Assembly (NCBI GenBank): GCA_007128425.1
Contig: SKXL01000019.1
Span: 1 to 53,342, forward strand
Length of the DNA stretch: 53,342 bases
Reading direction: 5' to 3'
From: Balneolales bacterium
GTDB lineage: Bacteria > Bacteroidota > Rhodothermia > Balneolales > Natronogracilivirgulaceae
The notes below the pieces were generated by a model. The model saw only the letters and a program-made list of their open reading frames with translations. It made no database searches and had not been told where the DNA came from. This document shows, piece after piece, positions 13,086 through 15,986 of this stretch. Position 1 is the stretch's first letter, and each line of letters begins with the position of its first letter. A program made the translations under genes and the position numbers.

Positions 13086-13424
13086 ATGACAAACAAAGAG
13101 ATTCGCATCAGCGTCTCACTCGACGATAACAACATCCCGGATAACATTATCTGGGATGCAGATGACACCAGTGCATCCGCCATGCCGGTCAGAGCCATGC
13201 TGCTCGCCCTCTGGGACCACCAGAACAAGGACACCCTGCGACTCGATCTCTGGACCAGGGACATGAGCCGGGATGAGATGAAGATTTTCTTTTACGAAAC
13301 ACTCAAGACCATGGCCGATACGCTTGAACGATCCATCGATGATAAACGCATATCAGGAGACATGCGAGATTTTTGTTCCTATTTTGCAGAAAAAATGGAT
13401 ATTTTGGAAAAACCTGGGAATTGA
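13086..13424 (+). CDS. gldC: GldC-like protein
   Basis: A 112-residue protein resembling gliding-motility protein GldC of Bacteroidota. It has EIRISVSLDDNNIPDNIIWDAD at the start in two conserved blocks, MLLALWDHQNKDTLRLDLWT in the centre and DEMKIFFYETLKTMADTLE near the end. GldC is a small cytoplasmic protein genetically linked to gliding and T9SS function; its biochemical role is unclear. The T9SS-tailed protease in this window fits that context, but no other gld genes are present here. It sits 63 bases after rluD and 34 bases before the response regulator. Confidence 0.88.
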   Translation: MTNKEIRISVSLDDNNIPDNIIWDADDTSASAMPVRAMLLALWDHQNKDTLRLDLWTRDMSRDEMKIFFYETLKTMADTLERSIDDKRISGDMRDFCSYFAEKMDILEKPGN

Positions 13425-13458
13425 ATGCCCGTTTCCTGTCAATAACCCACATATTATA

Positions 13459-13848
13459 ATGCAGACAAAACAGATTCTATACGTCGAAGACGATACGGCT
13501 AACCAGACGCTGATCAAACTGTTTTTCAAGAAAGAGCCCTTTGAGCTGACCACAACGGACAATCCTGATGATGCACTCGACCTCATCAAATCCAACTCCT
13601 ATCATGTGATCATTGTGGATTTGAACCTGCGAAAGGAAGGTGACGGAGCCGAACTGATACGTGAGATCCGCGAAGTTGACGGATACGAATCTGTGCCCGT
13701 TTTTGTATTCAGTGGACATGATATCCACAGCTTCCGGGATTACGGGATTGAAGACATGATCCAGACCTATTTCAGCAAGCCGGTCAACAAGAAAACTCTG
13801 ATCAATGCGATTTGGGAAGCTCTTGAAATAGAACAGAACCAAACGTGA
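13459..13848 (+). CDS. single-domain response regulator (receiver only)
   Basis: I start it at the ATG at 13459 (MQTKQILYVEDD), giving 129 residues, the length of one receiver domain with no output domain. The acidic pair is EDD at residues 9-11, the phosphorylated Asp is in IIVDLNL, the conserved Ser is in VFSGHD and the Lys is in YFSKPVN. It is therefore a CheY/Spo0F-type protein that transmits a signal by protein contact. No histidine kinase lies in the window. Its last 47 bases overlap the end of the convergent Memo-family gene. Confidence 0.92.
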   Translation: MQTKQILYVEDDTANQTLIKLFFKKEPFELTTTDNPDDALDLIKSNSYHVIIVDLNLRKEGDGAELIREIREVDGYESVPVFVFSGHDIHSFRDYGIEDMIQTYFSKPVNKKTLINAIWEALEIEQNQT

Positions 13849-15163
13849 CCGCGCTTTCCCGTTCACTTTCGTGCCACAAGTCATAGCCGGCAACCGATCC
13901 TTTAAGTTCGGGAAGAGCGCACATAGCGGTATAGAGAGGAGGAAAACCGCAAATCCGGTAGGGATCAAAGTCTCGCTTTATCAACGCGAGCAGTTCTTCT
14001 CTCTGCCCGTTTACAGCCAGATCAAGAAACTCCCGGTCAAACCGTTCAATGGCTTCAAACATGGTGGATGCCGGATCGGGATCGCCAAACTTTTTGCCTA
14101 CGTGTGCAAGATCTCCCGATATCAAAAAAAAGGTGTCGGGATCGTCAGCGAAATGGTGACTGAGGAGCGAAGCCATGGCAGCTACTTTCTGACCGGTATC
14201 ACCATCCTCCATATAATACAACTCTTCAAGTGAACCTACCAGAATCGGGACAACGGAAAAGGAATGTGACCATAGATACTGCAGAAAAATAAGGTGCAGT
14301 TCAATGCTGTGCTCGTTCCGGTGCGCCCGGTCCGTAAAAGAGCAACCGGACATCTCTGAATTTTTTTCAAGTATATCAATAAAATCCTGATCGGCAGGAA
14401 CCACACCCAGCGGTGTTTCAAAACTTTTTCGCGTCACCACAAACGGCTTTCCATCATAAAGCGGATAGTATGATCCGGAATAGTGGGAAGTTGCCAGAAG
14501 GACCACCCGTTTGGGCCGAAGGTCCGCCAGCCGGTGAAATGCCGGAATATAGGATGAGAGTCCGACCCGGAAATCTATATGAGGGGCATAAAGCGCTTTA
14601 ATTCGTCCCTCTTTCGCGCTCAGCCTGTGCTGATCCTCTCCATTTTGTGAAAACGCGGCATTCAGCAACTCTCTAATCTCCATTTCCGTCTGCGGATAGG
14701 ATTGCCCCGCACAGACAGCCGGCCTCACATCTTGACTCTCAAAGACCTCTTCGATCTCCTGCTTGCACTTCCGGAACCATGGCGACATCAGCAGGCACGA
14801 CTCGTCGAGTTGCCGCACAAATGCCAACAGCTCCATCTCATCCACCTCGCTTCCGTATCGCTTCAGGTCATTGCAGATATCCCGTACAGAGAAATTGCCG
14901 TCAAGCATCGGCAACAGCGCTGCAATTTGCCGGTCAAGGGCTATGGGTCCGGGCAAATAGCCCTGCGGATCATGGAAATAGATCAGCTCTTTATCTTCAT
15001 GGGTGACCGGAATCATCTCCACATCCGACCTGATTGGTGGAAGATTTATTTCCACATCACTGACCAGCAATTCTTTTTTTCGTTTGTCACTATCACGTTT
15101 TTTGCTGCTTCCGGCGCCACCGGTTTGGTCGTTTTGGGTGCTATCGTTGCTGCCGTTTTTCAT
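13802..15163 (-). CDS. Memo-family protein (AmmeMemoRadiSam system protein B) with N-terminal PqqD-like domain
   Basis: A 453-residue protein. The C-terminal 300 residues are a Memo/AMMECR-associated domain: YAPHIDFRVG (His195), LATSHYSG, HRNEHSIELHLIFLQY, SGDLAHVGKKFGDP and the conserved Cys in RICGFPPLYTAM. Memo folds like class III extradiol dioxygenases and carries metal or redox ligands at these positions. The first 50 residues are charged and low-complexity. Residues about 60-125 (AALLPMLDGNFSVRDICNDL...LAFVRQLDESCLL) look like a PqqD/RRE-type winged helix. The usual radical-SAM and AMMECR1 partners are not in the window. The start overlaps the nth stop by ATGA, implying translational coupling. 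Confidence 0.9.
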   Translation of the reverse strand: MKNGSNDSTQNDQTGGAGSSKKRDSDKRKKELLVSDVEINLPPIRSDVEMIPVTHEDKELIYFHDPQGYLPGPIALDRQIAALLPMLDGNFSVRDICNDLKRYGSEVDEMELLAFVRQLDESCLLMSPWFRKCKQEIEEVFESQDVRPAVCAGQSYPQTEMEIRELLNAAFSQNGEDQHRLSAKEGRIKALYAPHIDFRVGLSSYIPAFHRLADLRPKRVVLLATSHYSGSYYPLYDGKPFVVTRKSFETPLGVVPADQDFIDILEKNSEMSGCSFTDRAHRNEHSIELHLIFLQYLWSHSFSVVPILVGSLEELYYMEDGDTGQKVAAMASLLSHHFADDPDTFFLISGDLAHVGKKFGDPDPASTMFEAIERFDREFLDLAVNGQREELLALIKRDFDPYRICGFPPLYTAMCALPELKGSVAGYDLWHESERESAVTFGSVLFQELPKSH

Positions 15164-15825
15164 TTTCGATGATTGTTACAGGTGCAATGAGTGCCATAGG
15201 TTTCACAAACGGGGTGGTCCGGAGGCGTTGAAAAACGCGCCTTGCACACCGCCCTGCCATGTGCAATCAACAGATGCGACAAATTGGTCCATTCCTGCTG
15301 TGGAAAAAGAGTCATCAGATCACGTTCGATTTTTTTCGGATCCTGGTGTTTTGTTAGTGCAAACCGGTTTGCCAACCGCCTGACATGCGTATCCACTACA
15401 ACACCATAATTGATACCAAACGCATTTCCAAGTACAACATTCGCCGTTTTTCGGGCTGCACCGCGAAGTGACAAGAGTTCATCCATGGTCTGCGGTACCT
15501 CGCCTCCAAAGTCAGCAACAATTTTTTGCGCCGACTCCTTGATAGCCTTTGCCTTGTTCCGGTAAAACCCGGTCGTGCGGATCGCCTCCTCGATCTCCGG
15601 CAGCGGCGCATCAGCCATCGCCTGCGGTGTAGGCCAGATCCGGAACAAATCTTCCGTCACAATATTGACCCTTACATCTGTACACTGTGCACTCAATATG
15701 GTTGCCACCAGCAATTCAAACGGATTTCTAAAATTCAGAGCGCAGTGTGGGTTGGGATAATGAGCATAGAGGTCTGCCAGGAGCTGATCGGCTCTGTCTC
15801 TCTGTTTTTCCGTTTTCCGCGGCAT
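15160..15825 (-). CDS. nth: endonuclease III
   Basis: A DNA glycosylase/AP lyase for base-excision repair of oxidised pyrimidines. The ATG at 15825 gives 221 residues; a GTG at 15852 would add nine. ATILSAQCTDVRVN is the family opening. The helix-hairpin-helix reads LRGAARKTANVVLG, keeping the catalytic Lys (RKTAN) but departing from the usual LPGVGRKTA. The catalytic Asp is in VVDTHVRRLANR. The C-terminal cysteines are spaced C-x12-C-x6-C-x1-C (CKARFSTPPDHPVC, THCTC) instead of the canonical C-x6-C-x2-C-x5-C of the [4Fe-4S] cluster. The stop overlaps the downstream Memo-family gene. Confidence 0.93.
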   Translation of the reverse strand: MPRKTEKQRDRADQLLADLYAHYPNPHCALNFRNPFELLVATILSAQCTDVRVNIVTEDLFRIWPTPQAMADAPLPEIEEAIRTTGFYRNKAKAIKESAQKIVADFGGEVPQTMDELLSLRGAARKTANVVLGNAFGINYGVVVDTHVRRLANRFALTKHQDPKKIERDLMTLFPQQEWTNLSHLLIAHGRAVCKARFSTPPDHPVCETYGTHCTCNNHRK

Positions 15826-15986
15826 TTTCTGTTTATTATTAGATGATTTCACGTGTTCTGCGAGCTACTTTACTTTTTAGTGGATGGATCCGTATTATTT
15901 TACGTAATTTACTTATACTATTGAAGCAGCCTTAAACATTCGCATTATTACCATTAACCAGCTGTCTCTGATTCTTAACATTTACC

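Follow-up and report, generated by a model that had tools for sequence, protein, structure and literature searches.

According to excerpts of PMC11081632, the molecular function of Memo proteins is a long-open question, also in humans. As reported there, human MEMO1 binds Fe and Cu via H49, H81 and C244, with D189 and H192 being dispensable for metal binding, and is genetically linked to iron homeostasis; dioxygenase activity was not detected with the substrates tried. With regard to RREs, the consulted portions of PMC12710340 (mSystems 2025) define them by an order of strand-strand-strand-helix-helix-helix, and mention a predicted fusion of an RRE to PF01875 (Memo), which is called unprecedented in RiPPs. 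Passages of PMC7159879 served as an additional source. Within the PMC literature searched, as far as its texts were accessible, no paper besides PMC12710340 was found to name an RRE together with Memo. The initial annotation of the DNA considered herein suggested, for such a fusion, a function not described for the family; the architecture itself is already named in the same portions of PMC12710340.

The RRE-Memo gene and its predicted metal site

The window (the whole stretch of 53,342 nt analysed, from a Balneolales genome with a completeness of 90.8 %) carries the RRE-Memo gene on its minus strand at 13802..15163, beginning with ATG and encoding 453 aa; coordinates for all parts of this gene likewise refer to the minus strand. 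Immediately upstream lies nth (endonuclease III; 15160..15852, minus), and in the ORF map the Memo start (ATG at 15163-15161) and the end of nth share a 4-base overlap, which confirms the coupling of the two genes noted at the outset. On the plus strand, a convergent response-regulator ORF (13324-13848) overlaps the Memo gene tail to tail by 47 bases (13802-13848).

Residues 150-443 (13835..14716) constitute the Memo domain (PF01875), which scores 128.3 bits in Pfam against a cut-off of 27, whilst the NCBIfam model for AmmeMemoRadiSam protein B (TIGR04336) is matched with 95 bits (cut-off 26). Structure comparison relates the domain to MEMO1 with a Z of 31.9 over 270 residues and an rmsd of 2.2, and to extradiol dioxygenases and their relatives with Z values of 13.6-19. 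Alignment and structure pair each MEMO1 ligand with a residue of the window protein: H195 (14579..14581) with H49, H227 (14483..14485) with H81, and C405 (13949..13951) with C244. Similarly, D351 and H354 (14102..14113) correspond to D189 and H192, and the alignment reveals a further invariant pair, E284-H285 (14309..14314), within an EHS motif. All seven residues are invariant in every one of the 76 rows of an alignment comprising the window protein and 75 of 80 relative loci, the other five, with partial or unclustered ORFs, having been omitted. From this correspondence, the window protein would be expected to bind metal via two histidines and one cysteine.

The N-terminal domain

Profile searches, AlphaFold and structure comparison place a PqqD/RRE-type winged-helix domain (βββ-ααα) at residues 39-128 (14780..15049). 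In the AlphaFold model it is preceded by an N-terminal tail (residues 1-36; 15056..15163), with pLDDT below 50 for residues 1-12 and a predicted helix at 19-32, and followed by a linking helix region (residues 129-147; 14723..14779). The full-length model has a mean pLDDT of 93.3 and a pTM of 0.90, and a model of the domain only reaches a mean pLDDT of 93.7. Three strands (49-55, 58-64 and 74-77) are followed by three helices (78-81, 93-102 and 109-121). A PqqD/RRE-type domain on this Memo protein had been proposed in the initial annotation for residues 60-125 or thereabouts; the fold predicted, at pLDDT 93, is indeed the βββ-ααα of PqqD/RRE, and structure comparison and profile searches bear the assignment out. 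The location given was correct, whereas the extent was slightly short, as the domain begins near residue 39 and includes R45.

When the domain model was compared with the PDB using VIA-align, the best 12 rows were all RiPP-pathway proteins (Z 7.8 to 5.8), including TbiB1 (7.8), TigE (7.4), the PbtF RRE (7.2), LynD (7.0), PqqD (6.8), TruD, ThcOx and MadB, all of them proteins with an RRE or PqqD fold. Below these rank two protein methyltransferases (Rv2067c and PKMT2), a carbamoyltransferase (NovN) and a ribosomal-protein hydroxylase (MINA53), and NO66 comes further down. Z values for the domain are middling, all of them below 8, but the matches agree with one another and extend over the domain. 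When the N-terminal domain alone was run against the PDB with Foldseek, no hit reached E 0.001, the best being TruD (E 1.5e-3) and TbiB1 (E 0.019), with prob 1.00. As modelled, the N-terminal domain has a PqqD/RRE-type fold.

In sequence searches, the Pfam PqqD match (residues 74-125) is sub-threshold, with 17.9 bits against a gathering cut-off of 23.4 (E 0.004), and at E 0.1 PF05402 matches only two of 39 fused relatives. As the PF05402 cut-off is not reached, the domain is named RRE-type herein, rather than being counted as a member of that family. NCBIfam likewise gives a sub-threshold match, at residues 55-125, to the RiPP maturation protein ApyI, and a profile built from sequences of the domain picks up PaaA (E 2.5e-4) and PqqC/D (E 0.003 and 0.03) in the PDB, with a fragment of SMC5 ranking between them. 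Across 296 genomes of the phylum, the profile recovers 59 Memo fusions together with weak matches in 10 further genomes, from which 13 ORFs were read (five M50-peptidase-like, four PqqD-type, one LanB-type dehydratase and three AAA/DUF4143). In the subset scanned for domains, three M50-like ORFs gave weak M50 matches and three PqqD-type ORFs all exceeded the PF05402 cut-off; the three AAA/DUF4143 matches, one of them scanned, look like chance. That the domain itself is more than chance is argued by the long frame ahead of Memo in 59 of the 296 genomes, and by the concordance of AlphaFold, Foldseek/VIA-align and the PDB profile search.

Amongst these weaker matches, the M50-like membrane proteins (L162, L163, L164, L165 and L166) match the profile at or near their N-terminus. 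A single genome, G219, encodes four proteins (three ORFs of L167, and L172:305-904) that combine a PqqD-type domain, a twin-arginine-like signal and a tail in which Cys, Ser and Asp recur.

Conservation within the N-terminal domain peaks at the consensus PxLRxDIQ (residues 42-49; 15017..15040), where R45 is invariant in 76 of 76 aligned proteins. More broadly, conservation across domain and linker centres on P42, R45, D47, D65, D120 and R147; β3 and α3 as a whole are conserved no better than the remainder of the domain. A contact between the two domains would account for the conservation of PxLRxDIQ as readily as ligand binding would. In 75 of the 76 aligned proteins, helix α3 carries a net charge of zero or below, and none of the 76 has a domain with a net positive charge; this acidity counts against a nucleic-acid-binding winged helix, and a DNA- or RNA-binding role for the domain was rejected on the basis of charge.

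Descent, partner genes and gene neighbours

A survey of relatives found the fusion, with the RRE-type domain lying directly ahead of Memo, in the 59 genomes of the phylum sample mentioned above. In a tree of the Memo domain only, with 65 rows, a branch with support 99 separates the 36 fused rows from all others, the tree being a quick, unrooted search with long-branch warnings. Its 65 rows were drawn from 164 Memo domains by removing those at least 55 % identical to a retained one, with fused rows shorter than 380 aa omitted; L075 and L056, despite their long frames, were entered as unfused, the N-domain profile having matched nothing in the genomes they belong to (G173 and G006, respectively). 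On these sequences, RRE-Memo proteins of several phyla group as a single clade, distinct from all other sampled Memo proteins, a topology in keeping with the fusion having arisen once. Fused rows with a named source come from Balneolota, Acidobacteriota, Planctomycetota, Aminicenantes, Rokubacteria, Fermentibacteria, Ignavibacteria/Kapaibacterium and deltaproteobacteria. RRE-Memo is viewed as an old, widespread form.

The source genome contains one Memo, and searches for AMMECR1 and for the TIGR04337 radical SAM enzyme each gave zero matches, although at 90.8 % completeness single absences of this kind are no proof. The lack of either partner, first noted for the locus, thus holds genome-wide here, and extends through the order sample, in which AMMECR1 is found in 0 of 42 genomes and the radical SAM enzyme reaches its cut-off in 0 of 42. 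Across the 296 genomes sampled from the phylum, Memo is matched in 161, AMMECR1 in 47 and the radical SAM enzyme above cut-off in 65; 58 of the 59 with RRE-Memo lack both partners by the same measure. The sole exception, G160, has both, and also a separate Memo-AMMECR1 frame. Amongst 20 further RRE-Memo genomes, mostly of other phyla (20 of the 80 relative loci, between L129 and L155), 11 have AMMECR1 and 13 have the radical SAM enzyme above cut-off, and the idea that RRE-Memo replaces the AMMECR1/radical-SAM system was dropped for this reason. The survey for distant partner genes suggested at the outset therefore gives a divided answer, with absence across the order sample and presence in more than half of these 20 genomes. 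Mutual exclusion is lineage-bound, and the fused protein neither needs nor excludes the system.

Neighbour tables were built from mechanical ORFs of at least 60 aa with first start codons, such that gaps and overlaps are approximate. Within 63 distinct Balneolales loci, nth is upstream and on the same strand in 56 (i.e. 56/56 where the neighbour script found it) and immediately adjacent in 52; L078 also has nth, which is absent from the neighbour table and was found by tblastn. Of 36 Balneolales genomes, 28 have nth no more than 1 kb away from the N-domain, whilst the other eight have it at a different place. Conservation of the nth overlap, raised in the initial annotation, was thus found in part: adjacency is usual in Balneolales, whereas the exact 4-base overlap occurs in only four of the 63 loci, namely the window and three close relatives (L076, L077 and L130). 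Outside the order, ribosomal L13 and S9 genes adjoin RRE-Memo in Ignavibacteria-type loci, arginase-family genes do so in Aminicenantes and others, and SDR, desaturase and peptidase genes are found elsewhere. No neighbour recurs across phyla among the loci compared, and a link to iron, RiPPs or DNA repair by way of neighbours was rejected on that account. The damage-related function originally suggested is not supported, given that nth lies elsewhere in those eight Balneolales genomes and that the neighbours in other phyla are unrelated.

In five loci of other lineages than Balneolales (L061:3451-3660, L067:3320-3523, L068:3277-3528, L069:3225-3467 and L071:4988-5257), the gene immediately upstream of RRE-Memo encodes a small protein of 67-89 aa with two likely TM segments. 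It is the sole recurrent small neighbour in the 13 loci compared for these, being present in the five and their duplicates.

Nth is generally an iron-sulfur enzyme. In Balneolales, all 64 Nth proteins compared (the window and 63 others, loci L036-L130; 55 distinct C-termini) display a cysteine pattern of C-x12-C-x6-C-x-C, as do those of seven more genomes of the order, six without RRE-Memo plus G290, whilst three class outgroups examined have C-x6-C-x2-C-x5-C. Judged from these motifs, the iron-sulfur site of Nth may be altered throughout Balneolales. A link between RRE-Memo and Nth via the motif was rejected, as it is present in the six genomes without RRE-Memo.

Proposed function and comparison with known systems

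Our preferred reading, held tentatively and with a little less than even confidence, is that of a self-contained Memo metalloprotein, probably an enzyme, which would use its RRE-type domain to dock a peptide or protein from another locus for redox or metal-dependent modification. The Memo domain, of LigB/extradiol-dioxygenase fold, would bind Fe(II), possibly Cu, by two histidines and one cysteine; the winged helix would dock a peptide segment of a substrate or partner protein encoded elsewhere in the genome, and the docked segment would be delivered to the Memo active site for modification. RRE-Memo would do so without AMMECR1 and the radical-SAM enzyme, as a long-lived paralogue rather than a decayed remnant of the AmmeMemoRadiSam system. 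We infer peptide binding by the RRE-type domain from its fold, and catalysis by the Memo domain from the invariance of the metal site plus the further Glu, His and Asp; that the ligand may be a cellular protein made elsewhere is suggested by the housekeeping contexts and the lack of an adjoining precursor. In RREs, the peptide groove is lined by β3 and α3, and the absence of special conservation in these elements counts against docking, as does the lack of a partner recurring across phyla. The model is also weakened by the modest Z values and Foldseek E-values of the domain alone, by the missing dioxygenase activity of human MEMO1 on the substrates tried, and by the fact that neither a substrate nor a precursor came to light. 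An extension of the docking model, which we consider unlikely but not negligible, would see the RRE used outside natural-product biosynthesis in a housekeeping enzyme, its docking domain selecting a core cellular protein for the Memo domain to modify with Fe(II). This rests on analogy with MINA53 and NO66, which hydroxylate ribosomal proteins, and the ribosomal-protein genes beside RRE-Memo in some Ignavibacteria-type loci would suit it.

The same metal site could instead serve iron or copper handling, in which Memo carries or buffers metal and the RRE-type domain only docks a client, such as an Fe-S or other metalloprotein, without covalent modification. All three ligands are invariant in RRE-Memo and Nth, one common neighbour, is in general an iron-sulfur enzyme; yet the invariant Glu, His and Asp seem more than a carrier needs, and most neighbour genes are not metal-related, leaving this a reading to which we give limited but real weight. 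It is also favoured by the use of the same three ligands for Fe and Cu in MEMO1, with its genetic tie to iron homeostasis (excerpts of PMC11081632), and by RREs reported on DUF59 iron-sulfur assembly proteins (excerpts of PMC12710340). The winged helix might, on the other hand, be structural or regulatory, mediating dimer or interdomain contact as in the ROX hydroxylases, with no peptide involved and Memo acting on a small molecule. Conservation at P42, R45, D47, D65, D120 and R147 instead of β3/α3 overall is in keeping with this, as are the ROX winged helices amongst the structural matches and the full-length pTM, which suggests a fixed domain arrangement in the model; the best matches are nevertheless RiPP-pathway proteins, among them PbtF and TbiB1, whose solved structures contain leader peptides, and we regard this possibility as unlikely.

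Modification of nucleic acids or nucleotide bases in connection with Nth repair appears far less plausible. Burroughs and colleagues (JBC, 2019) are said to have proposed this context, amongst others, for Memo, and 52 of 63 distinct Balneolales loci have nth as the gene next upstream, its strand being that of RRE-Memo in all 56 where the neighbour script found it; against this, nth lies elsewhere in eight of 36 genomes of the order and is not a neighbour in other phyla, helix α3 and the N-terminal domain are acidic, and the odd Nth cysteine motif also occurs in genomes without RRE-Memo. Maturation of a RiPP natural product with a nearby precursor would agree with the RRE-type fold, but is highly improbable: the window has no RiPP cluster or precursor gene nearby and, with upstream gaps of just 134 and 56 bases and a downstream gene that overlaps the Memo end, no room for a precursor between the genes flanking Memo and nth. 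Elsewhere, neighbours in several phyla are of the housekeeping type, and the two-TM protein is the one recurrent small neighbour among 13 loci.

Under the preferred docking model, the built-in domain offers a practical handle, as what it grips may reveal a Memo substrate; and as the clade occurs both in genomes that have AMMECR1 and the radical-SAM enzyme and in genomes that lack them, Memo chemistry can be studied apart from that system. If the housekeeping-modifier extension were true, it would provide the first substrate class for the whole Memo family, including human MEMO1.

In comparison with known systems, human MEMO1 (PDB 7kq8 and 3bcz) has the same Memo fold and metal ligands as the window protein, but its solved chains are without an RRE-type domain, and identity is some 22-23 % over the aligned structure. 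Whilst the window protein scores above the cut-off for AmmeMemoRadiSam protein B (TIGR04336), it differs in that partners A (AMMECR1) and the radical SAM enzyme are absent here, in its separate tree clade, and in its extra N-terminal domain. PqqD/RRE domains (PF05402, TbiB1, PbtF, TruD and LynD) share the βββ-ααα fold and match structurally over the N-terminal domain, whereas RRE-Memo falls below the PF05402 cut-off, has no RiPP cluster, and conserves PxLRxDIQ instead of the groove elements. The ROX hydroxylases MINA53 and NO66 also join a winged helix to an oxygenase, and the folds of the winged helices are alike (Z 5.2 and 3.8), but their catalytic domain is a different one (JmjC) and their winged helix is C-terminal, such that the likeness is one of analogy only. 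The RRE-Memo fusions of PMC12710340 represent the same pairing of an RRE-type domain with PF01875 and receive one sentence in the portions consulted, without the clade, context or co-occurrence given here. New in the present work are thus the RRE-Memo clade, its independence from AMMECR1 and the radical SAM enzyme, its genomic contexts and the PxLRxDIQ stretch.
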